Of a DNA stretch of 21,741 bases, positions 1 to 15,000 are shown in pieces. A program made the position numbers and the translations under genes. Numbering within the stretch: the first letter of the stretch is position 1; the number at the start of each line of letters is the position of its first letter. The notes beneath the pieces were generated by a model. It worked only from the letters and a program-made list of their open reading frames with translations. It searched no databases and was not told the origin of the DNA. Source of the stretch: a virus; the IMG/VR virus record IMGVR_UViG_3300049845_000045, positions 1 to 21,741 of that record, one strand, 5' to 3'.

Positions 1-449
1 TCAACACCCAAGAGCTGACTGACGAGCTCAAGAAGCGGTACGCCGGGTACTCCCTGATCGTGTATCCAGACCCGGCCGGCAGCGCGCGGAAGTCCTCGGC
101 CGAGAACACTGACCACGCGATCATGCGGCTGGGCGGCCTGATGCTGCGGGTCATGGCAAGCCATCCGCGCATTCGAGATCGTGCGAACTCGGTGAACGCG
201 CTGTTCCTGAACGGCTTTGGTGATCGTCGGTTGCACATCAACCGCACGACATGCCCAGGTCTGCACAAGTCACTGATGACTCAGGTGTGGGACAAGGACG
301 ACAAGCCGAAGAAGGGCGTCCAGATCGGTTTGCCAAGCACCAAGAACACGCTGATTGACGGTCCATTGGACGCGTTGGGGTACTTCGTGTTCACGAACTG
401 GCCGGTGCGTGGTTCGGGCTCCCCGAACATTCGGCTGGTGGGTACGTGA
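1..449 (+). CDS. terL: Terminase large subunit, C-terminal part (5' truncated)
   Basis: This is the C-terminal ~149 residues of a phage large terminase, the motor ATPase and nuclease that packages DNA into the prohead. The reading frame is open from base 3 and continues off the left edge; the gene ends with TGA at 447-449. Visible are YPDPAGSARKSS, the acidic motif of the RNase H-like nuclease domain, then an RDRANSVNALFLN segment and the late acidic motif DGPLDALGYF. In relatives the last motif is usually DHPNDALGYF and supplies a metal-binding Asp. The ATPase domain lies outside the window. The portal gene follows after a 42-base gap, the usual order in tailed phages. The family assignment rests on motif recognition, and no other family fits as well. 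Confidence 0.85.
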   Translation, partial: NTQELTDELKKRYAGYSLIVYPDPAGSARKSSAENTDHAIMRLGGLMLRVMASHPRIRDRANSVNALFLNGFGDRRLHINRTTCPGLHKSLMTQVWDKDDKPKKGVQIGLPSTKNTLIDGPLDALGYFVFTNWPVRGSGSPNIRLVGT

Positions 450-459
450 TAGCGGCTGG

Positions 460-466
460 GTAAATA
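460..466 (+). promoter_or_regulatory. GTAAATA motif, copy 1 (terL-portal gap)
   Basis: GTAAATA followed by C lies 26 bases before the portal ATG. It sits inside a small inverted repeat, TGGG-TAAATA-CCCA at 457-470. A Shine-Dalgarno-like AGGA follows near 480-484. The same heptamer recurs in four other gaps (1814, 3534, 5119, 10644). It resembles the TATAAATA -10 box of T4 late promoters, but no -35 element is apparent. A role as a late promoter is inferred only from recurrence and placement. Confidence 0.4.
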
Positions 467-491
467 CCCAATACCGCATTAGGAACTCGCC

Positions 492-1817
492 ATGCCAGTC
501 AACACCCGTCACTACGAATTCGAAAAGGCGTACCCACGCATTGAGCTGACTGAAGCGGCGGTGGAGGGCTCGGTTCGACGCGAAGAGTTTGTGCCTCGCC
601 TGACAGGACAGTCACAGGCCGCCTGGGAAGCGTACGTCAAGCGCGCCGCGTACTACAACGTCACTGAGCGCTCGTTGCTTGCGTTGGTCGGCGCGCTGCT
701 TCGCAAGCCGTACAGCATGAGTGGCTTGGTCGGTGACGAGCCGGTTGTTGACGACACGCACTTTGAAGAGTTCCTGCAACGCGCGTACCGCACGCTGCTG
801 GTGCAAGGCAGGCTAGGGCTGCACGTCGATTACGACGAAGAGCGCGGGTCGCCAAAGCTCATCGCGTACAGCGCCGAGCACGTCATCAACTGGTGCAACG
901 ACTTCATCGTGATTGAGGAATCGGTCATCGAAAAAGACAAGGACGATCCCTTTGTTGTGAAGTCCGTGCCGCAGTGGCGTGAGCTTCGCATCAACGAGGC
1001 AGGGCAGTACGAGGTCCGGTTGTGGCGTCAGACGGGTCGTGATCGCTTTGAGATCATCGACACGCGCGTGCCGTTGGTGCGTGGTGCCGCGCTGTCCGAG
1101 ATCCCGTTCTGGTTCGTCACCCCGTACGACAACAGCACCGAGGTGTACACGCCGCCGCTGGCTGGCTTGGCCGAGCTGAACGTGCAGCACTTCCGCACTT
1201 CGGTTGACCACGGGCACGGGCTGCACTTCACGGCGCTGCCACAACCGTACATCGCAGGTGACCTGCAGCTCGCGGATCCGAACAACCCGGTGCTGAAGCT
1301 TGCCATTGGCACGGATCAGGTGTGGCACCTGACGGCCGGTTCAACGGTTGGGTACCTTGAGTTCAGCGGATCTGGTCTGGGCGCCATCAAGGAGCACATC
1401 CAGCACCTCGAAGAGCAGATGTACTCGGCCGGTTCACGGTTGCTGACCGTCAAGCGCGGTGTGGAGTCCGCTGAGGCCCTGCAGCTTCGTGCGGGGTCGG
1501 AAAGTGCCGTGCTGATCACGATGGCCCTGGCCCTTGAGCACGGTCTCATCGCGGCCCTGACCATGTACAACAACTGGGCCGGGTCTAGCACCGTGCCAAC
1601 CGTGGAGCTGAACAAGGACTTCACGGCCGCGCAGGTTGACCCGACCGAGATGAAGTCGCTGCTGGAGGCGTACGCCGCTGGCGCGCTCACGCTGGAATCA
1701 CTGCTCAAGCGTCTGTACGACGGCGAGCTGATCGAGGACGTGGAAACGGAGCTTGCCGCGCTTGCCGCGAATCCTCCGGCACCCGAACCGACTGTAGTTA
1801 CCGGCGTAAATCAGTAA
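492..1817 (+). CDS. Portal protein (DUF4055 type)
   Basis: A 441-residue protein recognised as the DUF4055 portal-like family. Portals form the dodecameric ring at the unique capsid vertex through which DNA enters and leaves. The N-terminal segment with the pattern AAYYNVTERSLLALVGALLRKPY (residues ~53-75) is the family hallmark. The long C-terminal helical part (residues ~290-400) has the EQMYSAGSRLL and SAEALQLRAGSESAVL segments expected of the portal stem and crown. The length is close to that of family members. The start ATG is preceded by an AGGA ribosome-binding site about 8 bases away. Its place between terminase and scaffold fits. No fused head-morphogenesis domain is seen. Confidence 0.85.
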   Translation: MPVNTRHYEFEKAYPRIELTEAAVEGSVRREEFVPRLTGQSQAAWEAYVKRAAYYNVTERSLLALVGALLRKPYSMSGLVGDEPVVDDTHFEEFLQRAYRTLLVQGRLGLHVDYDEERGSPKLIAYSAEHVINWCNDFIVIEESVIEKDKDDPFVVKSVPQWRELRINEAGQYEVRLWRQTGRDRFEIIDTRVPLVRGAALSEIPFWFVTPYDNSTEVYTPPLAGLAELNVQHFRTSVDHGHGLHFTALPQPYIAGDLQLADPNNPVLKLAIGTDQVWHLTAGSTVGYLEFSGSGLGAIKEHIQHLEEQMYSAGSRLLTVKRGVESAEALQLRAGSESAVLITMALALEHGLIAALTMYNNWAGSSTVPTVELNKDFTAAQVDPTEMKSLLEAYAAGALTLESLLKRLYDGELIEDVETELAALAANPPAPEPTVVTGVNQ

Positions 1818-1820
1818 ATA
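1814..1820 (+). promoter_or_regulatory. GTAAATA motif, copy 2 (portal-scaffold gap)
   Basis: GTAAATA followed by C overlaps the TAA stop codon of the portal gene (1815-1817) and lies 39 bases before the scaffold ATG. The downstream bases (CAGCAT) resemble those after copies 1 and 4 (CCGCAT). It is interpreted as the same unidentified element as the other four copies. Confidence 0.35.
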
Positions 1821-1858
1821 CAGCATCGACCACAAGGGCCGCCGGGGGCGGTTAAGCG

Positions 1859-2530
1859 ATGCTGAAATTTGAAACCAACGAGATCCCAGCGGGGCTGGAG
1901 TCTTACTACGAGGACACCGGAACCGGCGTCTTCAAGCTCAAGGTGGATGGGGTAGTTCCTGTCTCGGAAGCCGAACAGCACAAGTCGAAGCTCAAAGAGT
2001 TTCGCGACACGAACATCAACTTGAAGAAGCAGGTCGAAGAGCTTGCTCGCTTTGAGCAGATGTTCAAGAGCGGTGAGTTCTCGTCAGAGAAGCTCAGCGC
2101 CAAGATTGAAGAACAAGCGCTCGTTAAGGCCGCCGAAATGAAGGCCGCATACGAGCAGCAGGTCGCGGAGTTGACCGAGAAGCTCACTGGTACCAGTACC
2201 AAGCTTGAGCAGATCGTTCGAGACAACGCGGTCTCAGCAGCCGCTCTCAAGCACGGTGTGTCAGAGACGGCTCTAGAGGATGTGCACGCTCGTGCAAAGG
2301 CTGCCTTCAAGGTGGTCGATGGTGAGTTGGTTGCCGCTGATGGTGTCCTCGACGCCAAAGGCAAGGCCCTCACGGTTGACGGCTGGATGGCTGCTCTTGC
2401 TGAAAAGGCACCACACCTCTTCAACGCATCACGCGGGGCGGGTGCGACAAAACCGAACCGGCCGGTACCGGCAGTTGAGAAGAAGTCCGCTGTGGACCTG
2501 ATCTCGGCTGGATTGGCCAAACGCCGCTAA
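1859..2530 (+). CDS. Capsid scaffold protein (GP20-like minor structural protein)
   Basis: A 223-residue, highly charged protein directly upstream of the major capsid gene, the classical scaffold position. Scaffolds template prohead assembly and are then lost or degraded. Residues ~38-125 are Lys/Glu/Leu rich and helical, with a strong coiled-coil look (SKLKEFRDTNINLKKQVEEL). A Gly/Pro-rich hinge (residues ~195-210) is followed by a short basic C-terminal helix ending SAGLAKRR; such basic tails bind capsid protein in known scaffolds. The N-terminus resembles the phage minor structural protein GP20 family. The ATG has only a weak, G-rich ribosome-binding site (GGGGGCGG at ~1844-1851). No protease motif is seen, so this is scaffold rather than a protease-scaffold fusion. 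Confidence 0.75.
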   Translation: MLKFETNEIPAGLESYYEDTGTGVFKLKVDGVVPVSEAEQHKSKLKEFRDTNINLKKQVEELARFEQMFKSGEFSSEKLSAKIEEQALVKAAEMKAAYEQQVAELTEKLTGTSTKLEQIVRDNAVSAAALKHGVSETALEDVHARAKAAFKVVDGELVAADGVLDAKGKALTVDGWMAALAEKAPHLFNASRGAGATKPNRPVPAVEKKSAVDLISAGLAKRR

Positions 2531-2563
2531 GTACGGCAGCACCTTTTCCAATAGGAGCCTCAA

Positions 2564-3517
2564 ATGGCATTGATCACCCTTTCCGAAGTCAAGAAGCTTG
2601 GCTACGACGACCTGGCTGCTGGCCTGGCCGAGTCCATCATCACCATCAACCCGCTGTACCAACTGCTTCCGTTCAACACCGTGAACGGCAACGCGTACGC
2701 CTTCAACCGTGAAAACGCGCAGGGCAACGTGATCGTTGGTGGCCGTGGTGTTGCAACCACGAACGCCAAGGGCGCTCCAACCTTCACGCAGATCGCGCAA
2801 GCTCTGGTCACCATCGCTGGTGACGCTGAGATCGCTGGTCAGGACGTCGCACAAGGCGTTGGTGAAGGTGCTGGCAACGACCCTGTCGCTATGCAGGTTG
2901 CTGCCAAGGCTAAGGCCATTGGTCGCGAGTACCAGCGCATGATGGTTTCGGGCGACAGCGCTTCGCCTTCCGCTTCGAACGACACTGGTGTGACCAACAC
3001 CGCTGAGTTCGATGGTCTGATCAAGATGATCGGCTCTGATGCCGCGTTCTCTGCTCAGAAGCTGGACAAGGCCAACGCTGCTCTGACGCTGGACATGCTC
3101 GATGAGCTGGTTCACGCCGTCACCGCTTCTGACGCTCAGTTCCTGATGGGCAACAGCGCCGCTGTTCGCAAGATCCTGTCGCTGCAGCGCGCTGCTGGTG
3201 GTGTCACGATGACCGAGCTGGCTGGTGTGCAGGTTCCTTCGTGGAACGGCATTCCAATCTTCCGCAACGACTTCATCCCAACGGACGTGATCGGCGGTAC
3301 CGCTGGCAACCAAACGCACCTGTTCGCAGGTTGCTTCGACGACGGCACTCGCAAGCTCGGCATGTCCGGCGTGCTGCCTTCAGCCGGCGGTCTGATTGTT
3401 GACGACATCGGTTGGAGCGAAAGCGCCGACGTGATGATCAAGCGCGTCAAGATGTACGGCACCTTCGCTGTGCACTCGGTTCGCTCAGTCGCCGGTCTGT
3501 GGAACGTCACGGTCTGA
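2564..3517 (+). CDS. Major capsid protein
   Basis: A 317-residue protein matching the phage major capsid (GP7-like, HK97-fold) family. It starts MALITLSEVKKLG and has the typical N-terminal pattern of a helix followed by INPLYQLLPF and AFNRENAQGNVIVGGRG. Later segments fit the P-domain and A-domain of an HK97 fold: DKANAALTLDMLDELVHAV (spine helix), GVQVPSWNGIPIFRNDFIP, and a Gly-rich stretch near the C-terminus. A good ribosome-binding site (AGGAG at 2553-2557) precedes the ATG. Codon use is strongly biased (Ala GCT, Asn AAC, Lys AAG), consistent with high expression. A terminator-like hairpin follows 22 bases after the stop, a common arrangement after abundant capsid genes. Confidence 0.9.
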   Translation: MALITLSEVKKLGYDDLAAGLAESIITINPLYQLLPFNTVNGNAYAFNRENAQGNVIVGGRGVATTNAKGAPTFTQIAQALVTIAGDAEIAGQDVAQGVGEGAGNDPVAMQVAAKAKAIGREYQRMMVSGDSASPSASNDTGVTNTAEFDGLIKMIGSDAAFSAQKLDKANAALTLDMLDELVHAVTASDAQFLMGNSAAVRKILSLQRAAGGVTMTELAGVQVPSWNGIPIFRNDFIPTDVIGGTAGNQTHLFAGCFDDGTRKLGMSGVLPSAGGLIVDDIGWSESADVMIKRVKMYGTFAVHSVRSVAGLWNVTV

Positions 3518-3523
3518 TCTAGC

Positions 3524-3535
3524 ACCTAGCTAGGT
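3524..3535. repeat. 12-bp perfect palindrome ACCTAGCTAGGT
   Basis: A perfect palindrome just after the capsid stop codon. It overlaps the first two bases of GTAAATA copy 3. With the CTAG at 3519-3522, three CTAG tetramers fall within about 15 bases, although CTAG is generally scarce in bacterial and phage DNA. It could be a protein-binding site or part of the mRNA 3'-end structure. No function is established. Confidence 0.5.
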
Positions 3536-3540
3536 AAATA
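3534..3540 (+). promoter_or_regulatory. GTAAATA motif, copy 3 (after capsid gene)
   Basis: GTAAATA, here followed by A rather than C. It is wedged between the 12-bp palindrome and the terminator hairpin and lies 44 bases before the next start codon. If it is a -10 element, the transcript would begin within or near the hairpin, which is an odd arrangement. Confidence 0.35.
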
Positions 3541-3565
3541 AGGGAACGGGAAACCGTTCCCTTTT
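3540..3565 (+). terminator. Rho-independent terminator after the capsid gene
   Basis: A perfect 10-bp stem, AAGGGAACGG (3540-3549) with CCGTTCCCTT (3554-3563), closes a GAAA tetraloop. The run TTTT spans 3562-3565. The U-tract is short, so termination is probably partial. This would let capsid mRNA accumulate above that of the downstream connector genes while still allowing read-through into the tail operon. Confidence 0.75.
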
Positions 3566-3583
3566 GACTTTCTGGAGGTCCGA

Positions 3584-4093
3584 ATGACGTTGATCGTCGG
3601 CCAAAACACATACATCAGCCAAGCGGACGCGGAAGCGTACGCAGATTTGGCTGGCCTGGACGCCCTCACTGACCCCGTGAAAAGTCTCAAGCAGGCAACT
3701 CTTGCGCTCGACCGCTTGTACGGCGCGCGCTTCATTGGTCTCAAAGACAACCTGGAGCAGCCGCTGATGTGGCCGCGTCGTCCAACGTCGTCAGATGTGG
3801 ACAGCGCAACGGACTACTACCTCGTGGACAGCTTTGGGAACTACCGGAGCTTCACGGGCATTCCGATTGAGGTTGCGCACGCCACGGTCGAGCTGGCAAT
3901 GCTGATCGAGTCGGGCACCAACGTGTACGCGCAGTCAGATCCGGTCGTAAAGCAGGAAACCATTGAGGTTGATGTGATCAGGACCTCGCGCACGTACCAC
4001 GACATCGGGTACCGCACGAACTTCCTGCACAAGATCCATGTGATCTTGGCCCCGCTGCTGACCTCGGCAGCCTCATTCAAGCTGGTGCGCTGA
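3584..4093 (+). CDS. Head-tail adaptor (DnaT-like/gp6-like family)
   Basis: A 169-residue protein starting MTLIVGQNTYISQADAEAYA, the hallmark of the phage family catalogued as putative DnaT-like ssDNA-binding protein. Members sit just after the capsid gene and are best explained as head-tail adaptors docking under the portal. The central SLKQATLALDRLYGARFIG helix followed by QPLMWPRRP is typical. The ATG has a strong ribosome-binding site (GGAGGT at 3574-3579). Its TGA overlaps the next ATG as TGATG. The DnaT label reflects distant similarity; position favours a connector role over DNA replication. Confidence 0.75.
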   Translation: MTLIVGQNTYISQADAEAYADLAGLDALTDPVKSLKQATLALDRLYGARFIGLKDNLEQPLMWPRRPTSSDVDSATDYYLVDSFGNYRSFTGIPIEVAHATVELAMLIESGTNVYAQSDPVVKQETIEVDVIRTSRTYHDIGYRTNFLHKIHVILAPLLTSAASFKLVR

Positions 4094-4416
4094 TGGACTA
4101 CGCACGCATGGCCGGCATTGCCGACAAGCTTCTGAGCACGGTTGGAATGCGTGTCTCAGTGTCGCGAGCTGGTGCCTCGGTTGGCAGCGGCTCTGGCGTT
4201 TTCGTGAACAAGACCAAGCAGGACCAAACGACACCGGCCTCGTCGGTGCTGGCGCAAACCGCCATGACTGAGCGTGTGCTGCTGCTGTCAGGTCTGGTGC
4301 GTGAGGTTGAGGTCGGCGACACGGTTGTGGCCGAGCGCATTACGTACAAGGTCACGGGCGTTGAGATCGTGCGTCCAACGACCACAACGCTGCTTTACAA
4401 GCTCACGGTGGTCTGA
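4093..4416 (+). CDS. Putative head closure (stopper) protein
   Basis: A 107-residue small protein between the adaptor and the gp10-like gene, where head-closure proteins are encoded. The sequence is beta-rich in its second half (VREVEVGDTVVAERITYKV), consistent with the small beta-barrel fold of stopper proteins, and starts with a short helix (YARMAGIADKLLSTVG). It has no catalytic motif. It is translationally coupled on both sides: its ATG overlaps the upstream TGA and its own TGA overlaps the next ATG. The function is inferred mainly from position and size. Confidence 0.6.
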   Translation: MDYARMAGIADKLLSTVGMRVSVSRAGASVGSGSGVFVNKTKQDQTTPASSVLAQTAMTERVLLLSGLVREVEVGDTVVAERITYKVTGVEIVRPTTTTLLYKLTVV

Positions 4417-4715
4417 TGGCAATCATCCAAAACGTCTTCGCTGGTCTGAACACACGGCTTCGCAAGTTCAAGTCCGAGTTTGGTGTCGAGTTCATGGAGC
4501 GCGTCAAGGAAAAGACGCCCGTGATCACTGGTCGCTTGCAAAACGGCTGGGGCTTCACGATGAAGCAAACCGACATCGAGATCTGGAACGTCCAAGACTA
4601 CGCGTCGTACGTCGAGTACGGCACGCCCAAGATGGCGCCGCGAGGTATGTTGCGTCGGACGCTGCTTGAGTCCCAGGACATCGCAAAGGTCGCAATGGAG
4701 AGGGCCAAGAAATGA
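4416..4715 (+). CDS. HK97 gp10-like tail completion / neck protein
   Basis: A 99-residue protein of the HK97 gp10-like family. The signature pattern is present: KEKTPVITGRLQNGW, then NVQDYASYVEYGTPKMAPRGMLRRTL. These proteins join head and tail or complete the tail in siphophages. The ATG overlaps the preceding stop (TGATG), and its own TGA overlaps the next start (ATGA), so the connector genes form one coupled translation unit. Confidence 0.85.
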   Translation: MAIIQNVFAGLNTRLRKFKSEFGVEFMERVKEKTPVITGRLQNGWGFTMKQTDIEIWNVQDYASYVEYGTPKMAPRGMLRRTLLESQDIAKVAMERAKK

Positions 4716-5113
4716 GCTACGCAAATCTTCAAGCGGCCCTGGACAACCACCTGCAGACGTTGGCTAACCTGCCGCCGCTGCAGCTTGAGAACACCCGCAA
4801 CATCGGCCGCACTGGTCAGTCGTTCTCACGCGCCACGCTGTTGCCAGCCCGTCCAAGTCAGCTCTCGGTTGGCGCGCAAGGCCGTGATCTTCGACGCGGC
4901 CTGTACCAGATTGACCTGTTCGTCCCAACGGACGACGGCGCAACAACCGCAAACGTGATGGCCGACGAGGTCATCGCGCACTTTCCACGAGGTTTGGTCG
5001 TGTCGCTAGACGGCACCAGCGTCGTGGTCGAGATGGCGTACCGCGAAGTCGGACAGCGTGTAGAGACGTTTTACATGCTGCCAATCATGGTCGTTTGGTG
5101 GTCCATTGCCTGA
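4712..5113 (+). CDS. Tail terminator protein (DUF4128-like)
   Basis: A 133-residue protein resembling the DUF4128 tail terminator-like family: an N-terminal helix, a central strand run with RRGLYQIDLFVP, a helix TTANVMADEVIAHFPRG, and C-terminal strands. Tail terminators cap the tail tube hexamer and bind the head connector. It lies directly before the tail tube gene, as in lambda (gpU before gpV). The start overlaps the upstream stop as ATGA. Confidence 0.7.
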   Translation: MSYANLQAALDNHLQTLANLPPLQLENTRNIGRTGQSFSRATLLPARPSQLSVGAQGRDLRRGLYQIDLFVPTDDGATTANVMADEVIAHFPRGLVVSLDGTSVVVEMAYREVGQRVETFYMLPIMVVWWSIA

Positions 5114-5118
5114 CCGAA

Positions 5119-5125
5119 GTAAATA
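5119..5125 (+). promoter_or_regulatory. GTAAATA motif, copy 4 (before tail tube gene)
   Basis: GTAAATA followed by CCGCAT, lying 26 bases before the tail tube ATG, the same spacing as copy 1. A strong ribosome-binding site (AAGGAG) lies between the motif and the ATG. It precedes one of the most highly made virion proteins, which would fit a promoter or an mRNA-stabilising element. Confidence 0.4.
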
Positions 5126-5150
5126 CCGCATAGCCCATTAAGGAGCACCC

Positions 5151-6059
5151 ATGGCCGCATCTAACAGCCGTCGCCAGCTTGCGTTTATCCCTGAGACCGT
5201 TTTCGGGACCACGCCAGCCACCCCACAAACCCAGCTCATCGAGTTCGTGTCGTTTGACGCGGACCTGACCTCTGAGCAGCTCAACAGCGCTGCCATTCGT
5301 GCTGACCGCCAGATCGGTTTTTCACGTCGCGGCAACCTGTCAGCCGAGGGTTCGCTTGTCGTGGAAATGGCGCCCGACAACTACGACACGTTCCTTGAGG
5401 CCACGCTTGGTGGCACTTGGACAACCAACGTACTGAAGATTGGCAACACCGCTCGTTCGTTCGCCTTTGAAGAAGGCTTTATGGACATCGCGCAGTTCCG
5501 GGTGTTCAACGGTGTGACGTTCAACAGCCTGTCGATGGAAGTGACGCCTGACGCGCTTGTTCAAGCAACGTTCGGCCTGATGGGTTCGACTGCAACCGCG
5601 TTCACTGGCACGTCGATTGACTCGACGCCAACCGCGATCACAAAGAAGGATGTGTTCTTCCACGAAGGTGGCACGATCAACGAAGGCGGCGCACCAGTCG
5701 CGTTCGTCACCGGCATCACCTTTGAGCTGACGAACAACCTCGCTGGCAACCGCGCCCTGGGCAGCTCGTCGTATCGCTCGATGACGCTGGGCCGCGCTGA
5801 GGTGACCGGCACCGTGACCGCGCTGTTTGAGTCCGTGACGCTGTACAACAAGTACCGCAACAGCACCACGTCGTCGCTGAGCTTCGTGCTGTCGGCTGGT
5901 TCGCCTGCCGAGACACTGACCTTCACGTTCCCTGATGTCCGCTACACGAGCGGCACCCTGCAGCGTGCTGACACTGGCCCGGTGCTGGTTGAGCTTGGCT
6001 TCACGGCTGTGTACGACTCGGCTTCAGCCACGTCGCTGCAGATCACGCGGAGCGCTTGA
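5151..6059 (+). CDS. Major tail tube protein
   Basis: A 302-residue protein resembling the Phage_tube_2 tail tube family. Hexamers of such proteins stack to make the tail tube. The start SNSRRQLAFIPETVFGTTPATP is a typical N-terminal arm. The rest is beta-rich with repeated short strands (EGSLVVEMAPDNYDTFLEATLGG, NSLSMEVTPDALVQATFGLMG) and a C-terminal segment GPVLVELGFTAVYD. The ribosome-binding site AAGGAG is well placed. The TGA overlaps the tail chaperone ATG (TGATG). Its position between the tail terminator and the chaperones confirms the call. Confidence 0.88.
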   Translation: MAASNSRRQLAFIPETVFGTTPATPQTQLIEFVSFDADLTSEQLNSAAIRADRQIGFSRRGNLSAEGSLVVEMAPDNYDTFLEATLGGTWTTNVLKIGNTARSFAFEEGFMDIAQFRVFNGVTFNSLSMEVTPDALVQATFGLMGSTATAFTGTSIDSTPTAITKKDVFFHEGGTINEGGAPVAFVTGITFELTNNLAGNRALGSSSYRSMTLGRAEVTGTVTALFESVTLYNKYRNSTTSSLSFVLSAGSPAETLTFTFPDVRYTSGTLQRADTGPVLVELGFTAVYDSASATSLQITRSA

Positions 6060-6436
6060 TGAAGGTTAGCTCACTGCTGCCGACTGCCCGAGACCTGCCC
6101 ATCAAGTTCGTTGATGGCGAGCCTACGGGCATCGTCATGAAGATCGTTGGTCACGACAGCAAGCAGGTGCACGAGGTCGGCAAGAAGTTCGCCATGCAGC
6201 TTAGCGAGGATGGCAAGAACTTTGACCTGCTTGAGCAGCGCGCCGCTGAGGTGGTGGCCGCTTGCGTGGTCGGTTGGACCGGTCTCGAAAACGAAGACGG
6301 CACCCCAATGCCGTACTCACACGAAAAAGCCGTTGAGCTGCTGTCCAAGCCCGAGCTGTCATTCATCGCTGAACAGGTTGTGAGGTACGCCGCTACACGG
6401 CAAAACTTCTTTCGACGGCCTGAATCAGAAGCTTGA
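6059..6436 (+). CDS. Tail assembly chaperone, short form (gpG-like)
   Basis: A 125-residue protein in the lambda gpG slot between tail tube and tape measure. gpG-type chaperones coat the tape measure protein during tail assembly. I start at ATG 6059, which overlaps the tail tube TGA; a TTG at 6056 in the same frame is less likely. The core (IKFVDGEPTGIVMKIVGHDS, then a helical EQRAAEVVAACVVGWTG) looks like the strand-rich N-domain of this family. It ends at TGA 6434-6436. The +1 frame is open from 6384, so a longer gpGT-type product is expected by frameshifting (see the 6414-6791 entry). Confidence 0.75.
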   Translation: MKVSSLLPTARDLPIKFVDGEPTGIVMKIVGHDSKQVHEVGKKFAMQLSEDGKNFDLLEQRAAEVVAACVVGWTGLENEDGTPMPYSHEKAVELLSKPELSFIAEQVVRYAATRQNFFRRPESEA

Positions 6437-6791
6437 GACCTACATCCGCTGGGTCGTAGAGACCCAGCACCCCGGAAAAGATGGTGTCTCCAAAGAGCGC
6501 CATCTTCAAGCCGCCATCAAGCAACTTCAACGAGCCGGCCGCCCAACGGCTGAGCTTGAGGCACAGCTTGTGCCTCCCGAGATCCCAAACGGCTTTGAGT
6601 ACCTGATCTCGCACTTTGCTCTCATAAATAGAGCAAGAGGCAGTGGCTTTAACGGGCCGTTGGCAATCAGCTTCACCGAACTCAAAGCTTTCAGCGAGCT
6701 GCTGGACATCACGCTTGAGCCATGGGAGGTACGTGCGCTGTTGCGACTTGACGCTGCCTACATCGAAGCATCAATGGATCGGGGCGCGTAA
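6414..6791 (+). CDS. Tail assembly chaperone extension (gpT-like), reached by frameshift
   Basis: An open frame without its own convincing start, from 6384 to TAA 6789-6791, in the +1 frame relative to gpG. Its translation contains FEYLISHFALINRARG and ends EPWEVRALLRLDAAYIEA, the helix pattern of gpT-like chaperone C-domains. The best slip site is UUU_C at 6410-6413: tRNA-Phe on UUU can move +1 onto UUC, and the next zero-frame codon is CGA. A slip there gives a fusion of about 243 residues (118 + 125). The -1 frame is blocked by TGA at 6421. The last base of the TAA is the first base of the tape measure ATG (TAATG). Confidence 0.7.
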   Translation, partial: DGLNQKLETYIRWVVETQHPGKDGVSKERHLQAAIKQLQRAGRPTAELEAQLVPPEIPNGFEYLISHFALINRARGSGFNGPLAISFTELKAFSELLDITLEPWEVRALLRLDAAYIEASMDRGA

Positions 6792-9136
6792 TGGACATTG
6801 TCTCACTGCTGTTTAAGGCGAACACCAAGGCCCTTGATGACGCCGAGAAGAAGCTTGCCAAGGTTGGCGACGAAGCGGCCGATGCGCAAGGCAAGCTGAA
6901 TCAGGCAGGTAGTGCAGGCGAGAGCGCCGGTCGAGGCATCGCTTCAGGCAGCAACCTCGCGGCATCTGGTGTTGGCAAGCTCACGATGGCCGTCAAGACA
7001 CTGGTAGCACCGCTGCTGGCAGTCATGTCGGTGACCAAGTTCATTGATGTGGCGCGTGAAGCCGAGATCCTGAACGCCAGCTTGATCACGGCAACCGGAT
7101 CCGCTGAGAAGGCCGCCGAGGCCATGACGGCGCTGCAGGACTTTGCCTCGCAGACTCCGTACGATCTAAACCAAGTGGTTGATGGGTTCAACAAGCTGGT
7201 GAACCTTGGCTTGACCCCGTCTGAGCGTGCGCTGACCGCGTACGGCAACACGGCGTCGGCACTCGGCAAGGACCTCAATCAGATGATCGAGGCGGTGGCT
7301 GATGCTGCCACCGGTGAGTTCGAGCGTCTGAAGGAGTTTGGCATCCGCTCCAAGAAAGAGGGCGACAACGTCACGTTCACGTTCCGTGGTGTTGCCACCA
7401 CCGTCAAGAACAACAGCCGTGAGATTGAAGAGTACCTGACACGGCTGGGTGAGGTCGAGTTCGCGGGCGCAATGGAACAGCGCATGAACACGCTTGATGG
7501 TGCGATCTCGAACCTTGGCGACAGCTTCACCAAGCTGGTGACCTCAATCTCCAACTCAGGTCTTGGCAGCGTTGTTGCATCCATGGTGCGTGAGGTTGCC
7601 GGTTGGTTCGACTGGCTGGGCAACTTCTTCACGGCTGGCGGCTTCAACGCGTACATGCTGGCGCTTCGCGCGCAGTGGGGCAACTTGTTTGGCGACATCG
7701 CCAAGGTGGTTTCCAACATCTTCAACTGGATCAAGAGCTTCAGCTCTACGTCGGTAGCCGAAACCTCAGATACGTGGCTGATGCTGCCAAATCGCATCCG
7801 CACCGCCATTGGCACGGGTTTGGCCTATCTCGCTGAGATGGTGACCAAGGCCCAGGCGTACGGCAAGGCCATCGCTGAGGCGGTCTCGGCACCACTGCAG
7901 TCGCTGACCGATGGCAGCTTCCGCAGCCAGATCACGGCTCGCTTGGATGCTCGATTGAAGGAAGCCGAGCAAACACGCCAACGCGCAGTTGAGACCCTTA
8001 AGACCGAAGAAAAGAACGCGCAGATTCTGTTGCAAGCCGCTCGCGTGCAGGCAGCGGCAGCGGTTGAGTTTGCGTCCGCTTCGAGGGTGCCAACTCCAAG
8101 CCCAGGTGATCGACTTGCGCAGTACCGCGTTGGGGCAGATGCGCCAAGCACGCCCACACAGTCCAAGCCAGAGCAGCCAAAGTTGCGCGAGCGTGAGTAT
8201 CGTGGTGACTTCCGCGACGCAAACGCCGAAGCTGAGTACAAGTCGTACGAGAAGTACGCACTGGCAACCGAGAAGCTGCTTGAAGAACGCGAGACGCGCG
8301 AGCGCGAGATTGCACTAGCGGCGCGTCGGAACGCACAAGAAGAGTACATGGCTCTGATGCAGCGCATTCAGGGCTACCGTGATCTTGCTGACCCAACACT
8401 GCGTTACCGCGATCTGCTGACACAGATGAACGCGGACTACCAGACCGGCAAGCTTGATGCCGAGTCGTACGCCAGCGCGGTTGCCAAGATCAAGGACGCC
8501 ATTGCTGAGGTTGACGAGTCTTGGAAGGACGGCAGCTTCACGGATGGTATGAAGCAGGCACTGGGCGAAGTGAATCGCCAGCTCATGACAACGGCCGAGA
8601 TGGGCAAGAGCGCCTTCACGGAGTTTGCTGATCGCTCGTCCGACGCGTTTGCAGACTTTGTGACCACAGGCAAGCTGAACTTCAAGGAGTTTGCTCGCTC
8701 ATTCCTGGCCGACATTGCCAAGATGATCGCCAAGCAACTCATGTTGAACGCGCTGAAGTCGGCCTTTGGTGGGTTCTTTGCTGACGGTGGTGCGTTCTCG
8801 AACGGCGTGCAGTTCTTTGCCAAGGGTGGCGTCGTCAATCGACCGACCGCGTTTGGTATGTCTGGTGGCCGTGTTGGTGTGATGGGCGAAGCTGGACCAG
8901 AAGCGATCATGCCGCTGAAGCGTGGTTCTGACGGCAAGCTTGGTGTGGTCGCCCAGCAAAGCGGCCCCAAAAACGTCAGCGTTCACAACAACATCAGTGT
9001 GTCGATTGGGTCGGTGGACAGCGCCGAGCGCCAAGCCGAGCTGTTGCGCGAGATCCAGAAGACCACCGAGGCGACCACCAAGCGCACACTGGCCGATCAA
9101 ATGCGCCCAGGCGGCATGCTGTACGCGCGAGCCTAA
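6791..9136 (+). CDS. Tape measure protein (lambda gpH-like)
   Basis: A 781-residue protein that sets tail length and is ejected during infection. The N-terminal helix (ALDDAEKKLAKVGDEA) is followed by a tape-measure domain at residues ~75-265 (ASQTPYDLNQVVDGF, GEFERLKEFGIRSKK). A long Gln/Arg/Glu-rich coiled coil occupies ~375-430 and ~475-530. The lambda-type C-terminal domain spans ~590-745, with FKEFARSFLADIAKMIAKQL, AKGGVVNRPTAFGM and GEAGPEAIMPLKR; the last is highly characteristic. At the rule-of-thumb 0.15 nm per residue the tail would be about 117 nm. It starts at ATG 6791, overlapping the upstream TAA, with only a weak GGGG ribosome-binding signal. Confidence 0.92.
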   Translation: MDIVSLLFKANTKALDDAEKKLAKVGDEAADAQGKLNQAGSAGESAGRGIASGSNLAASGVGKLTMAVKTLVAPLLAVMSVTKFIDVAREAEILNASLITATGSAEKAAEAMTALQDFASQTPYDLNQVVDGFNKLVNLGLTPSERALTAYGNTASALGKDLNQMIEAVADAATGEFERLKEFGIRSKKEGDNVTFTFRGVATTVKNNSREIEEYLTRLGEVEFAGAMEQRMNTLDGAISNLGDSFTKLVTSISNSGLGSVVASMVREVAGWFDWLGNFFTAGGFNAYMLALRAQWGNLFGDIAKVVSNIFNWIKSFSSTSVAETSDTWLMLPNRIRTAIGTGLAYLAEMVTKAQAYGKAIAEAVSAPLQSLTDGSFRSQITARLDARLKEAEQTRQRAVETLKTEEKNAQILLQAARVQAAAAVEFASASRVPTPSPGDRLAQYRVGADAPSTPTQSKPEQPKLREREYRGDFRDANAEAEYKSYEKYALATEKLLEERETREREIALAARRNAQEEYMALMQRIQGYRDLADPTLRYRDLLTQMNADYQTGKLDAESYASAVAKIKDAIAEVDESWKDGSFTDGMKQALGEVNRQLMTTAEMGKSAFTEFADRSSDAFADFVTTGKLNFKEFARSFLADIAKMIAKQLMLNALKSAFGGFFADGGAFSNGVQFFAKGGVVNRPTAFGMSGGRVGVMGEAGPEAIMPLKRGSDGKLGVVAQQSGPKNVSVHNNISVSIGSVDSAERQAELLREIQKTTEATTKRTLADQMRPGGMLYARA

Positions 9137-9145
9137 GGAGACAAC

Positions 9146-9493
9146 ATGCCCGTAGCCCTTCCACTTCAGACCGCAATCTCGCAGGCGTCATCCGCTGGCG
9201 TTGAGTTCCGCGTGCTCATGTCCCAGTACGGGAACGGGTACAGCCAACGGGCGCCAGATGGCATCAACAACGCGATTCACTCATGGGATGTTGTTTGGGA
9301 CAACCTGACAGCGTCCGAGTTCACCACGGTCGTGAACGCCATAGAGGCTGCCAAAGGCGCGGATTACTTCACCTGGCAAGCCCCTGGTGACGCCGCAAGC
9401 AAGAAGTACGTGATCAGCGCGTACAGCAAGTCGGCACTGGCAGGCGAGATCTACTCGGTGTCAGCCACACTCAAGCAGGTCTTTGACGTATGA
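9146..9493 (+). CDS. Minor tail protein, gpM-like
   Basis: A 115-residue protein of the phage minor tail (lambda gpM) family. Signature elements are the early QYGNGYSQRAPDGIN segment, WDVVWDNLTASEF, and the central DYFTWQAPGD strand. gpM takes part in tail tip assembly at the distal end of the tape measure. An AAGGAG ribosome-binding site (9135-9140) overlaps the tape measure stop. The gene's TGA overlaps the gpL-like ATG (ATGA). Confidence 0.85.
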   Translation: MPVALPLQTAISQASSAGVEFRVLMSQYGNGYSQRAPDGINNAIHSWDVVWDNLTASEFTTVVNAIEAAKGADYFTWQAPGDAASKKYVISAYSKSALAGEIYSVSATLKQVFDV

Positions 9494-10623
9494 GCCTAAA
9501 CACTGAACTCCAAAAGTCAGTGCTGAGTGCGCTGATTGAGCTGTACACCATTGACCTTAACCCAATTGGCGTCAACGAGGTCTTCTATCTGACGCCTACG
9601 CCCAACGCCAAGGTTGAGCGCCGGAACTTGCTGACGTTTACAGAGGACCTTCGCAATACCGCAGAGGCTGGTGCAACTCGTCCCTGGTCGCAGTTCAACG
9701 ACACTGGCAACGAAGTCGCAGTCACCATTGGGCACGCAGACCCCATTGGAGGCACAGGCGCGTCAAAGCTTACTGCAACGACAGGTCTTCAAGTTCAGCG
9801 GCAGGTTTCACAAACACCAAATCCCTTGTTGGTGGGCAACAGCTTTGCAACTGTTTCTGTGTACGCAAAAGCTGCAGAGTGCCAACACCTAAGGCTTTAC
9901 ATTAGCACGAGAACAGCGACCACAAACTTCCCGTTCGCCACTTTCAATCTGCAAAACGGAACGTTCACTGGGTTTGGCACAAGCAATGGCTTCACCATGT
10001 CTGATGCCCGCATTGAAAGCGTTGGCGATGGTTGGTACCGCTGCAGCGCGTCACTTGCCGACGTTGGATCTGGTGGCGTATCTGGTGGCAGCGCCATTCT
10101 GCAAATGGTGCAGTCTAACGGCGCAGCTTTTGATCCTGTGAATGCAGGCGAGGGCCTGTTTCTGTGGGGCGCGCAGCTTGAGTACGGTCCGCTGACACAG
10201 TATCAAGCCGTTCCCGGTTCATCGTGGTGGCAGCCATACCCCGACGCCATTCGATTTGACGGCAACACGTACATTGCGTTCCCAATTCAGGGTGACGGCT
10301 TTGAAACGGCTTCCAACGGATCGCCACCACAGCCAACCCTTCGCATCAGCAACGTCACCAAGTACATCCAGTCGTACTTGGGCCTGTACCAAGACTTGGT
10401 AGGCGCAAAGGTCACGCGGTTTTTGACGTTCAAGAACCTGCTTGACACCCCGTCTGAAGTTTTTGGACAGCAGGTGTACCTCGTGCACCAACTGGTGTCG
10501 CAAACCAAAGACCAGATTGAGTTCAAGCTGTGCTCGGTGCTGGACAACAAGCAGATTAAGCTGCCGCGCGAGCAGGTTCTCCGAAACGAGTTCCCAGGAG
10601 CTGGACTCTTCAGAGCTGACTGA
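9490..10623 (+). CDS. Minor tail protein, gpL-like, with inserted carbohydrate-binding-like domain
   Basis: A 377-residue protein in the gpL slot of the tail tip. The gpL core is split: residues 1-43 (SALIELYTIDLNPIG) and ~242-377 (IRFDGNTYIAFPIQGDGFETASNG, then PQPTLRISN) form the gpL-like half-domains. Between them, residues ~44-241 form a jelly-roll or carbohydrate-binding-like phage module: RRNLLTFTEDLRN, ADPIGGTGASKL, ATVSVYAKA, then VGDGWYRCSASL and LFLWGAQLEYGPLTQYQAV. The four-cysteine iron-sulfur C-terminus of lambda gpL is missing; only one Cys lies outside the insert. The insert holds the rarer Arg codons AGG (9892) and AGA (9910), so it may have a different origin. The start overlaps the gpM stop. 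Confidence 0.8.
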   Translation: MSLNTELQKSVLSALIELYTIDLNPIGVNEVFYLTPTPNAKVERRNLLTFTEDLRNTAEAGATRPWSQFNDTGNEVAVTIGHADPIGGTGASKLTATTGLQVQRQVSQTPNPLLVGNSFATVSVYAKAAECQHLRLYISTRTATTNFPFATFNLQNGTFTGFGTSNGFTMSDARIESVGDGWYRCSASLADVGSGGVSGGSAILQMVQSNGAAFDPVNAGEGLFLWGAQLEYGPLTQYQAVPGSSWWQPYPDAIRFDGNTYIAFPIQGDGFETASNGSPPQPTLRISNVTKYIQSYLGLYQDLVGAKVTRFLTFKNLLDTPSEVFGQQVYLVHQLVSQTKDQIEFKLCSVLDNKQIKLPREQVLRNEFPGAGLFRAD

Positions 10624-10625
10624 TG

Positions 10626-10673
10626 GCCGATCACTCAGGGTGGGTAAATACATGCACACCCTGATGAATCGGC
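10626..10673 (+). promoter_or_regulatory. Hairpin with GTAAATA in its loop, before gpK-like gene
   Basis: An imperfect inverted repeat fills the gap between the gpL-like and gpK-like genes. GCCGAT (10626-10631) pairs with ATCGGC (10668-10673), and TCAGGGTG (10635-10642) pairs with CACCCTGA (10657-10664), with a 3x3 internal loop between the two helices. The 14-base apical loop contains GTAAATA copy 5 (10644-10650). The 3' arm abuts the gpK-like ATG at 10674, and no clear Shine-Dalgarno sequence is seen. It may be a translational control element, an operator, or a promoter in a palindrome. It lacks a U-tract, so it is not a standard terminator. Confidence 0.6.
10644..10650 (+). promoter_or_regulatory. 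GTAAATA motif, copy 5 (before gpK-like gene)
   Basis: GTAAATA followed by C lies in the apical loop of the hairpin at 10626-10673, 24 bases before the gpK-like ATG. It is the only copy inside the tail tip operon. Confidence 0.4.
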
Positions 10674-11408
10674 ATGACGCAGCACCCACTGTCTGATGAA
10701 ACTCTACAAGCCCTAAAGGCGCACCTGATCTCGGTGTGGCCGGAAGAGGGCTGCGGGTACATCAAGGACGGGGTGTTCTACCCTGTTGCGAACCTCGCCG
10801 AAGACAAAGAGCACGCGTTCGAGTTCCCAGCCGATCTAATGCTGGTTGAGCCGGACATCATTGTGCATTCGCACACGGTCGGCTACGCCGACAAGAACCC
10901 AAGCCACGACGCGCGTGCTCCCTCACATGCTGATCTGGTTGGGCAGCTCAACACCGCCGTTGAGTGGGCGCTGTGTGTGACTGACGGACAAACCTGCGAA
11001 GACCCACGGTTTTGGGGCAACCCAAGCAACCGCCCACCTTTGGTTGGCCGGGACTTCATTCACAACCTGCAGGACTGCTTCTCGCTGGCCCAGGACTGGT
11101 ACTACGCCGAGCGCGGGTTGGTGCTACCAAACGTCGCGCGTACCCCGTTCTGGAATCAAGAGGGCGAAAACCACATTGCGGAGCACTACGCGAGCTTTGG
11201 CTTTGTGGAGATCCCGCTAAGTGAGCTGCAGCACGGCGATGCGCTGCTGTATCAGGTGCGCTCCAAGGTCCCAAACCACATTGGCATCTACGTTGGTGAC
11301 AACCGCGTGCTGTCGCACTGGGCCGGTCGGATCTCGCAGGAAGAGGACTTCGGTACGTGGGCACGGTACATCGTGACGGCGCTCCGGTACCAGGGAGACA
11401 AGCAATGA
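10674..11408 (+). CDS. Tail assembly protein, gpK-like (JAMM + NlpC/P60)
   Basis: A 244-residue two-domain protein like lambda gpK, a tail tip protein. Residues ~1-105 form a JAMM/MPN metalloprotease-like domain, with Glu24/25, the HSH metal motif at 65-67 and SHAD at 84-87. Residues ~120-235 form an NlpC/P60 cysteine peptidase domain, with the nucleophile Cys135 in LQDCFSLAQDW and the catalytic His202 in NHIGIYVGDN. NlpC/P60 domains cut peptidoglycan peptides; in tail tips this may help local wall penetration or tip maturation. The chosen ATG gives a complete JAMM domain but has no good ribosome-binding site and follows a strong hairpin. Its TGA overlaps the gpI-like ATG (ATGA). Confidence 0.88.
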   Translation: MTQHPLSDETLQALKAHLISVWPEEGCGYIKDGVFYPVANLAEDKEHAFEFPADLMLVEPDIIVHSHTVGYADKNPSHDARAPSHADLVGQLNTAVEWALCVTDGQTCEDPRFWGNPSNRPPLVGRDFIHNLQDCFSLAQDWYYAERGLVLPNVARTPFWNQEGENHIAEHYASFGFVEIPLSELQHGDALLYQVRSKVPNHIGIYVGDNRVLSHWAGRISQEEDFGTWARYIVTALRYQGDKQ

Positions 11409-12001
11409 GAACCATCAAGCTGCACGGCGCGCTCGGTAAGGAGTTCGCTGAAAAGATCGAGCTTGAGTGCTCAAACATGTTCCAGGTCATGACGGCGCTG
11501 GAAAGCCGCTTTGGGCCGCGCTTCAAAGAGGTCATTCGTACTGGTCGCTGGCACGTCGTTGACGGCGCCGTGAAGCCTGGAAACGACCTGTCTGAAGAGA
11601 CGCTGCAACGCCCACTCAAGAACCGGGTGCTGCACATTATGCCCGTTGTCGAAGGCAGAAACAGCACGGTTCGAATCATCTTGGGCGCCGTGCTGATCGC
11701 GGTTGGAACGTACTTTGGTCAGACGTGGATGGTCCAAGCTGGTTGGGCCATGGTCATTGGTGGTGTCGTTGAGATGCTGGTCAAGCCAAAGGGCATGGAC
11801 CAAAGCAAAAAGCTGGACCAAGCCCAAAGCTCGTTGTTCAACGGCGCCCGAAACGTGACCACACAGGGTGGTCCGATCCCGCTGATCTATGGCCGCGTAC
11901 GTCGCGCCTCATCGGTAGTGATCTCGTCCGACTTCAGCTCGGCCGCCGTGGTGATTCCACAAGAAGTAATTGACGTTGGTAGCGAGGGTCCAATCCCATG
12001 A
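11405..12001 (+). CDS. Tail assembly protein, gpI-like
   Basis: A 198-residue protein in the lambda gpI slot between gpK and gpJ types. The N-terminal MRTIKLHGALGKEF is the family signature of a ubiquitin-like beta-grasp domain. A hydrophobic stretch at residues ~89-125 (IILGAVLIAVGTYFG, then WAMVIGGVVEML) is also typical of the family. The C-terminal part has FNGARNVTTQGGPIPLIYGR, also seen in gpI homologues and thought to help gpJ incorporation. The frame extends upstream to 11357, but ATG 11405 matches the conserved N-terminus and overlaps the gpK-like stop. The TGA overlaps the gpJ-like ATG. Confidence 0.87.
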   Translation: MRTIKLHGALGKEFAEKIELECSNMFQVMTALESRFGPRFKEVIRTGRWHVVDGAVKPGNDLSEETLQRPLKNRVLHIMPVVEGRNSTVRIILGAVLIAVGTYFGQTWMVQAGWAMVIGGVVEMLVKPKGMDQSKKLDQAQSSLFNGARNVTTQGGPIPLIYGRVRRASSVVISSDFSSAAVVIPQEVIDVGSEGPIP

Positions 12002-15000
12002 CAGAACTAATCAAAGGCGCTGGTGGTGGTGGTTCAAAGCCACGCACTCCTGTTGAGACCCCAAACACCCTGCTGTCCAAGACCACCGCGAAGGTGCTGT
12101 TTCTGTTGTCTCAAGGTGAGACAGGCGGCCTTGCGGACCAAATCAACCCAGCCAAGGCTGTGTACTTCAACAACGTCCCGGTGATGAACTCGGACGGATC
12201 GCCGAACTTCCCAAACGTACAGATTGACGAGCGGTACGGTTTGCCATCGCAGGATGTGCTGCCAGGGTTTACACAGGTTGCCAACGCCTTCAACGTGAAC
12301 ACCAAGGTGCTGGTGAGCACCCCAGTCACGTATCAAACCGCCACGTCTGACATTGACGCGGTGCGTGTCACGGTGCGCTTCCCGGCGCTGTTCCAGACCG
12401 AGGACAACGGCGACATCAACAAGACCACGGTGCAGTTTGGCATCTACCGTCGGCTTGGCGCCGGCGCGTGGGAGCTGGTTCGGAACGTGTGGGTGAACGA
12501 CAAAACGAACGCTCCGTCCGACATTGACTACACGGTTGAGCGTCCTGCTGGTACGGGCACCTGGGGTGTGCAACTTCGTCGCGTGACGGCTGACAACACG
12601 TCAAGCTCCAAAGCGAACGACATCTTCTTCCAGACCGCGACCCAACTGAAGTACGCGCAACTGCCGTACAACAACCGCGCGGTGGTGGGTGTTACGGTCA
12701 CGGCTGACCAGACTGGCGCGCAGTACCCAACGGTTGCGTTTGACTACGTTGGTATCAAGGTCAAGGTGCCAAGCAACTACAACGTGACTACTCGCGCGTA
12801 CACGGGTGCTTGGAACGGGACGTTTGCGGCTCAACGACAGGTCACGGACAACCCGGCCTGGATTCTTTACGACCTGCTGACCAACACCTGGTACGGCATG
12901 GGCATTGCGGAAGCTGACATCGACAAGTTCAGCTTCTATGACGCTGCGGTGTACAACGATGGCTTGGTGCCAGCTCTTGTGGGTGGTGCGTACTCTGGCA
13001 CCGAGCCTCGTTATACATTCAACCACCAGTACCTCGACGGCCAAGAGGACGCGTGGTCGATGCTGCAGAACCTCGCAGCGTCGTTTGGCGCGGTGGTGTA
13101 CACGGCAAACAACCTCGTCAAGCTGGTTCAAGACCGGCCAACGAACTGGTCCCGTGTGCTGACGAACTCAAACGTCATTGACGGCAAGTTCGAGTACTCA
13201 TCAAGCGCCCTAAACACACGCACCACGGCCTGTGTGGTGTACTGGCAGAACCCAGACGAGAACTGGTTGGCGACGCCGTCGTACTACGAGGACGCCGCTG
13301 CCGTTGCGCGCTATGGATACAACCTGAAGGAAATCGAGGGTGTCGGCTTGACCACGGAAGGTCAGGCCATGCGTCTCGCCAAGTGGACGGTTGAGACCTC
13401 GATCTCGAACCTTGCAACCGCGCTGTTCAAGGTTGGCTTTGAGAACGCGGGCTTGACCCCAGGTGAGGTCGTCAAGATCGCTGACTCCGAGTACGCGCAG
13501 GTCATGAACGAGGCCGTCGTGATCTCGTCGGGCTCGGGCACGTTCACCCTTGACCGTGCCGTGAACGTGACCAACGGCGACACGCTCGATGTGCAGGCGT
13601 CAGACGGCAGCGTGCAGACCCGCACGATCTCGATCAGCAGCACTGGCAGCACGATCACGTACTCCGGTGACGCGGTCACGGTGACCCCAGGCGCCAAGAT
13701 CATCTTCACTGGTGCGATCTCGCCCCGGTTCTTCAAGGTCCTGTCGGTGCGCGAAGAAAAGCCGGGTGAGTGGACCGTCAGCGCAGCGCAGTACGACCCT
13801 AACAAGTTCGGCCGTGTGGACAACACGCCAACTGGCCCAACACCGGTCTTCCAGCTTCCAGTGCTGGTCACGTCGGCGCCACAGAACCTAACGTTCCGTG
13901 AAGGCGCCGTGAATGACAACGGCAACATCCGTCGTTCGCTGCTGGTGTCTTGGAGCCGTCCAGCCCAAGGTGTTGTGTCAGGGTACCGCTTGCAGATTCG
14001 TCGTGACACAGGCGCATGGGACGTGCGTGATGTGTCGTCCACGAGCTTTGAGATCACGCCAGCCGCTGACGGCTTGTACGAGGTCGAGGTTCAGGCCGTT
14101 GGCACAAGTGGTGTGCTGTCGTCGAAGGCAACTGGCTCGTACACGCTGGCGATTGGTGGCGGCTCGGCCTCACCGCTGAACGCGCCAACGTCGCTGCAGA
14201 TCATTGGTGGCGGCACGAACTTCAGCGGCCTGGACGTGAACTTCCAGTTCACAAACCCATCGTCAAACGCGTCCGTTGCGGCGGTGCTGCGTGACTTTGA
14301 GATCCGTGTCATTGAAACCGTTGGCAGCACCGAGCTTCGTCGCTTCACAGTGCCTGCAACTCCTGCTGGACAGATTCAGACTGGTGCGTACACGTACTCG
14401 ATGAACCTCGCGGATGGTGGCCCGCGCCGCACCGTGCAGATTCAAGTTCGGTGCCGTGACACAAACAACAACCTGTCCAACCCTGTCACCGCCACGTTCA
14501 CAAACCCAGCACCGGCCGTGGTTTCAGGCATCTCGGTGGTTGGTGGCATTGGCAACGTCAAGATCACGTTCGACAAGCCAACTGACGCCGACTTTGCTGG
14601 TGTGCTGGTGTGGCGCTCAACGACGAACGGCTTCACGCCGTCGTCCGGCAACCTTGTGTACGACACCACGTCGAACTACATCAGCGACTCGGTGGACTTT
14701 GGCACGACGTATTACTACAAGCTGGCGGCGTACGACCAGTTCAGTCGTCCGGTTGACGGCGCTGGCCTGAACATCAGCACGCAACAGTCTGGTGCAGCTC
14801 AGGCGGGTGAGGGCATTCCAGAGGTTTCAACGCTGCCAAACCCAAGCGGGTACACCGGTCCCAAGATCGTGTTCTTGGAGTCTGACGGTCAGTTGTACTC
14901 GTACATTGACGGGGCATGGGAGCCCACGATTCCGCCAGTCAGCGATGTGCTGGATGGGTCGATCACGGTTGCCAAGTTTGCAGCTGGCCTGGAGCCTGTC

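Follow-up and report, generated by a model that had tools for sequence, protein, structure and literature searches.

A short box with the core TAAATA recurs before virion genes in a little-known family of small siphophages and prophages. We propose that nTAAATA probably constitutes a set of T4-type, phage-specific late promoters, many of them insulated against read-through, and that GTAAATA is the form found in the window. The window is the whole stretch of DNA analyzed here, a 21.7-kb IMG/VR fragment (21,741 nucleotides) of a siphophage virion gene block.

GTAAATA in the window

Genes in the window are ordered portal, scaffold, capsid, adaptor, head closure, neck, tail terminator, tail tube, tape measure, and tail-tip. 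An earlier note, made from the letters alone, had placed GTAAATA at 460, 1814, 3534, 5119, and 10644, and these positions are exact. All five copies lie on the + strand and the − strand holds none, and each copy precedes a virion gene, within a gap. Boxes and neighboring genes are as follows.

460..466, + strand: box 1, GTAAATA, before the portal gene; putative start near 472
492..1817, + strand: portal protein gene (PHROG 145, E 1.9e-84)
1814..1820, + strand: box 2, GTAAATA, before the scaffold gene; putative start near 1826
1859..2530, + strand: head scaffolding protein gene (PHROG 206, E 2.4e-22)
2564..3517, + strand: major capsid protein gene (PHROG 212, E 1.2e-46)
3534..3540, + strand: box 3, GTAAATA, after the capsid gene; putative start near 3546
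3584..4093, + strand: head-tail adaptor Ad1 gene (PHROG 477)
5119..5125, + strand: box 4, GTAAATA, before the tail tube gene; putative start near 5131
5151..6059, + strand: tail protein gene (PHROG 290 minor tail protein, E 3.8e-69), taken as tail tube by position
10644..10650, + strand: box 5, GTAAATA, before a tail-tip gene; putative start near 10656
10674..11408, + strand: minor tail (tail-tip) protein gene (PHROG 30, E 1e-54)

The earlier note held this recurrence to be improbable by chance, and the counts bear it out: 0.22 copies are expected per window, and 0 of 100 dinucleotide shuffles reached five. The first 12 kb contains seven gaps totaling 278 bases, and all five copies fall inside them; GTAAATA is common to five gaps, and the best heptamer in 2000 gap shuffles was shared by three at most. 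The short distance to the start codon claimed for the word was confirmed at 23-43 bases, counted from its last base, as was the C that follows four of the five copies (the exception is 3534). The further claim that no copy lies within a gene stands insofar as all five are in gaps, but copy 2 overlaps the portal stop codon (TAA = 1815-1817). CCGCAT or AGCAT sequences are indeed present downstream of copies 1, 2, and 4, but they vary by site and do not form a second conserved box, and the site logo described below shows nothing constant downstream of TAAATA. At copy 2 these words include a sequence complementary to the region of the start codon, and copies 1 and 4 show the same weakly.

Several other features of the window were observed. 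A sixth TAAATA, preceded by A, occurs at 6625 inside a tail chaperone gene, away from any start codon, flanked by GCTCT/AGAGC arms. The tail assembly chaperone pair occupies 6056-6791, with the second open reading frame in the +1 frame and overlapping the end of the first, and TTT-CGA-C at 6410-6416 resembles a +1 frameshift site. A giant tail-tip/fiber open reading frame in 11998-21741 ends at 20118, but its reading continues in a different frame until the contig ends, which probably reflects an indel near 20110.

The box in related phages

A search with the capsid protein led to two close relatives, G1 (L006 plus its contig L018+L019; capsid 77% identical) and G2 (L007, a prophage of Xenophilus sp. 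E41; capsid 72% identical), and the portal protein led to L040. As single queries against IMG/VR, the portal and tail proteins returned no relatives; a capsid alignment as query did yield IMG/VR relatives. A search of 800 genomes from the host's family and order found no prophage besides the Xenophilus ones. Several relatives are metagenome fragments, for which gene starts were called in this analysis.

In G1, GTAAATA precedes the portal, scaffold, adaptor, tail tube, tape measure, and further late genes. The portal gap is boxed in G1 (L006:713), G2, and other relatives as well, and the tail tube gap is boxed in G1 (5387) and G2 (16801). The part that stays constant across close relatives is TAAATA, and across 13 related contigs this core takes two clade-specific forms, C(A/G)GTAAATAG versus GATAAATAA. 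Contigs L025 and L026-L033, with capsids 39-54% identical, mostly carry GATAAATAA, which lies before the scaffold, adaptor, tail tube, and chaperone genes. The TAAATA pattern is absent from L034-L036, with capsids 28-29% identical. The isolates whose capsids are closest are Mesyanzhinovviridae such as Xanthomonas phage DoCa5 and Pseudomonas phage PAKlein3. Their capsids are ~42% identical and their genes are similarly ordered, but TAAATA is practically absent, with 0-2 copies per strand in complete genomes of 56-60 kb.

Anatomy of the box and comparison with T4 late promoters

A logo was built from 69 curated sites (30 and 39 in the two clades), for which the TAAATA core itself had served as the search word. 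The core is preceded by G in the window's clade and by GA in the second clade; taken as a pair, the two leading bases are mostly AG, GG, or CG in the former and GA in the latter. There is no conserved -35 block: from -45 to -4, almost every position carries close to zero information. Downstream of the box, too, no sequence is fixed. The segment that directly follows the box, AT-rich in T4-type late promoters, is AT-rich in the second clade but not in the window's GC-rich clade. Boxes lie 22-71 nt from the start codon, mostly 25-50 nt, with a single exception at 10 nt, and barring that exception the lower limit is 22-25 nt. Judged from these spacings, a transcript starting ~6 nt after the box would just fit a Shine-Dalgarno sequence at the shortest normal distances. 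A reading of the box as the -10 element of host sigma-70 was rejected, as there is no -35 and window positions 1-12000 contain 0 pairs of -35 and -10 hexamers spaced at 16-18 nt versus 2.3 in shuffled sequence.

A T4 late promoter is one 8-bp box that lies about a helical turn ahead of the start, and it lacks a -35; variants in the first two bases are known, and the late box of Aeromonas phage Aeh1 keeps TAAATA with the two leading bases changed (PMC2988020). Promoters of this type have been described for T4-related phages with gp55 and a sliding clamp. The boxes reported here share with the gp55-sigma promoters (TATAAATA) the same TAAATA core and the lack of a conserved -35, and in both systems there is one box per late gene or small operon. 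Relative to TATAAATA, the leading two bases here are not TA, a deviation of the kind reported for Aeh1. The resemblance to the T4 late box that the earlier note had pointed out thus rests on the core, the missing -35, and recurrence before orthologous late genes across the phage family. The two systems differ in that ours are small siphophage-type genomes or prophages, the leading bases are GT or GA, and no gp55 homologue was found.

Hairpins at the box

In the mechanism we propose, the box would act as a single -10-like element without a -35, with a transcript start ~6 nt past its last A. Frequently, an inverted repeat has its left arm in contact with the box, and this repeat would fold in RNA reading through from the upstream gene. 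The fold would be a terminator-like hairpin downstream of the capsid gene, and at some of the other boxes a stem hiding the Shine-Dalgarno sequence or start codon. A transcript initiated ~6 nt past the box would be without most of the left arm and remain free, so that the hairpin would silence only read-through RNA.

One such hairpin in the window follows the capsid gene.

3540..3563, + strand: terminator-like hairpin AAGGGAACGG/CCGTTCCCTT; its left arm begins at the last A of box 3

In 11 of 13 contigs, distant ones included, the left arm of a terminator-like hairpin lies directly against the post-capsid box, although these are not 11 independent cases, since L026, L027, L028, L029, and L033 are close to each other. 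These stems have energies of -13 to -21 kcal/mol and start at most a few bases from the box's final A. In RNA that starts 6 nt past the box the stem is lost, with a residual -3 to -11. The arms covary, with 3-4 pair types at arm positions 5-7. An abutting hairpin is missing in G1 and contig C25; G1 has a terminator just before the post-capsid box. The hairpin of contig C32 is without a clear T-run.

Two pairings in the window bear on start codons.

1821..1864, + strand: scaffold-start hairpin; arm 1821-1828 CAGCATCG pairs with 1857-1864 CGATGCTG, and the ATG is at 1859-1861
10651..10676, + strand: pairing of CATGC (10651-10655) with GCATG (10672-10676) over the start codon; weak, and alone not significant (p 0.25)

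The clearest start-hiding case in the window's clade is that at 1814, before the scaffold gene, where opening the hairpin costs 20.3 kcal/mol versus 10.9 when the left arm is shuffled (p 0.003); in RNA that starts 6 nt past the box, the opening cost is 10.7 kcal/mol. At G1 2091, again before the scaffold gene, AAGCATCTT pairs with AAGATGCTT (p 0.002), at G2 10358 ACTCCCGTC pairs with GACGGGAGT (p 0.002), and G1 5387 and 18817 have start-hiding stems at p 0.005 each. At these five sites, the window's with its TAAATA at 1815 among them, the box-adjacent arm pairs with the Shine-Dalgarno sequence or start codon at p 0.002-0.005. Start-hiding stems at p <= 0.02 were found at 8 of 28 sites in the window's clade, compared with 3 of 38 control starts, and at 1 of 39 in the second clade; with all sites taken together, a rank test was not significant (p 0.22). 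A start-hiding hairpin at every box is therefore ruled out, as only a subset of sites has one and many boxes are without any adjacent hairpin.

This arrangement has a precedent in T4. The long early RNA of gene e hides the ribosome site in a stem, and late promoters lie in the 5' strand of that stem, so that RNA started from them is without that strand and well translated (PMC3014915). The gated leaders of T4 gene e, soc, 49, and I-TevI share the layout proposed here, in which the 5' strand of a stem concealing the ribosome site contains a late promoter, and the window site at 1814 and the four sites in G1 and G2 have this geometry, with the left strand at the putative promoter (p <= 0.005). 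Gated leaders serve a few special genes in T4, whereas here putative ones precede several virion genes, and the terminator-like hairpin after the capsid gene is additional to what the T4 leaders have. From a T4-like box combined with gene e geometry at a subset of sites, we infer phage-specific late promoters, some of them insulated.

The strongest competing explanation, which we regard as rather doubtful, accepts T4-type promoters but takes the hairpins as capsid mRNA 3' ends and scaffold autoregulation instead of insulation. It would account for gating that is significant at a subset only. It also fits the second clade, where the scaffold Shine-Dalgarno sequence lies within its own small covarying hairpin (TTAC-GGA-GTAA or ATTCC-GGA-GGAAT), far from the box. 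It does not, however, account for a post-capsid arm that starts at the box even in distant contigs, nor for several unrelated G1 and G2 leaders whose arms also start there. The second-clade hairpins, found at L027:9227, L033:9231, L028:952, L030:3153, and L031:2393, possibly reflect translational control of the scaffold protein.

Another explanation places the function of the word in RNA, where UAAAUA beside a hairpin would be cut by an endoribonuclease or bound by a protein to give processed or regulated late mRNAs. A hairpin directly adjoining the word at many sites, the strand specificity of GTAAATA/TAAATA, and the frequent overlap of the word with the upstream stop codon, which places it in a transcribed stretch, all agree with such a role. 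A cut at the word, however, would keep the start-hiding stem intact and the Shine-Dalgarno sequence or start codon still hidden, and some boxed genes lack a co-directional neighbor immediately upstream from which a precursor could come (by the gene calls of this analysis, in which some neighbors may be spurious). For both reasons the RNA processing site that the earlier note had offered beside a promoter is less likely. The many boxes that stand without a hairpin, and surroundings that are not fixed as would be expected for a protein-RNA site, also argue against it, and we consider this explanation unlikely.

Search for the recognition factor

Late promoters of the type we propose would call for a dedicated recognition factor. 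The earlier note had suggested a late promoter read by a phage sigma or polymerase; the promoter reading is supported here, but no phage sigma or polymerase that reads the box was found. A gp55 profile (PHROG 234) that finds T4's own protein found none in nine related records, which are perhaps fragments. Pfam and PHROG comparisons of 30 early proteins gave no convincing sigma or gp55, six-frame searches of the relatives with the gp55 family and sigma regions 2 and 4 produced no convincing match, and no known RNA polymerase gene was found in the relatives. A sigma region 4 match in G2 (16 bits) was below the cut-off and inside the polymerase-like protein described next, and was set aside.

A protein of ~366 aa, for which neither Pfam nor PHROG gave a convincing match, is encoded at L020:7950-9047 (G2), L040:2537-3664, and L052:6001-7080. 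It carries the family-A polymerase motifs YDI.ACAPT, K..(I/L)NS.FNGARLAKN, and EHDGF, and the best PDB match of its AlphaFold model (pLDDT 77) is Bst DNA polymerase I (E 2.3e-4); it is possibly a compact polymerase of these phages. Its motifs and fold could suggest that in G2 and L040 it is the phage RNA polymerase reading the box. Its best matches are DNA polymerases, however, for which a role in replication is simpler, and BLAST found no match to it in the second-clade contigs that carry the box. We thus think it very improbable that this protein reads the box, and take it for a replication gene. GIY-YIG family proteins were also observed in the early regions of L018, L020, L040, and L044, some with their own TAAATA box.

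The candidates for a late factor are narrowed to a handful of small early genes. TAAATA before virion genes without a gp55 homologue would point to convergence or to an undescribed late factor. More tentatively, we suggest that these small siphophages and prophages may have their own late system, with a TAAATA reader unrelated to gp55 or known sigma factors and with promoters built into hairpins, so that genes would be expressed from their own promoter only. If so, this would be a widespread phage family in which several virion genes have their promoter in the left arm of a hairpin. The box-hairpin design may offer densely packed genes a simple form of insulation that needs no spacer DNA, and the hairpin geometry may help to annotate late transcription units in phages that have not been cultivated.

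Frequency of the word

A literature search for phage promoters of the form GTAAATA or GATAAATA returned nothing relevant. With the word preset, GTAAATA occurs on the late strand 9 times in G1 versus 0.36 expected and 3 times in L040 versus 0.2, and the opposite strand of G1 has one copy. TAAATA counts on the late and other strands are 16/2 in G1, 14/2 in G2, and 8/3 in L040, where 1.6, 1.5, and 0.65 are expected. Across the 13 contigs, 66 late-strand copies of TAAATA have a Shine-Dalgarno sequence and an open reading frame start behind them, compared with a summed mean of ~14 for permuted words, a control that is strict in AT-rich contigs because some permuted words overlap the same sites. Chance or base composition, which might be invoked since permuted words are also common before genes in AT-rich relatives, can be dismissed for practical purposes, as no shuffle of the GC-rich contigs came near the observed counts and the word replicates at orthologous gaps and in G1, L040, and G2. 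The Xenophilus genome that hosts G2 contains 18 copies of GTAAATA in 5.9 Mb, three of them within the prophage, and this rarity in the host favors a phage-specific reader.
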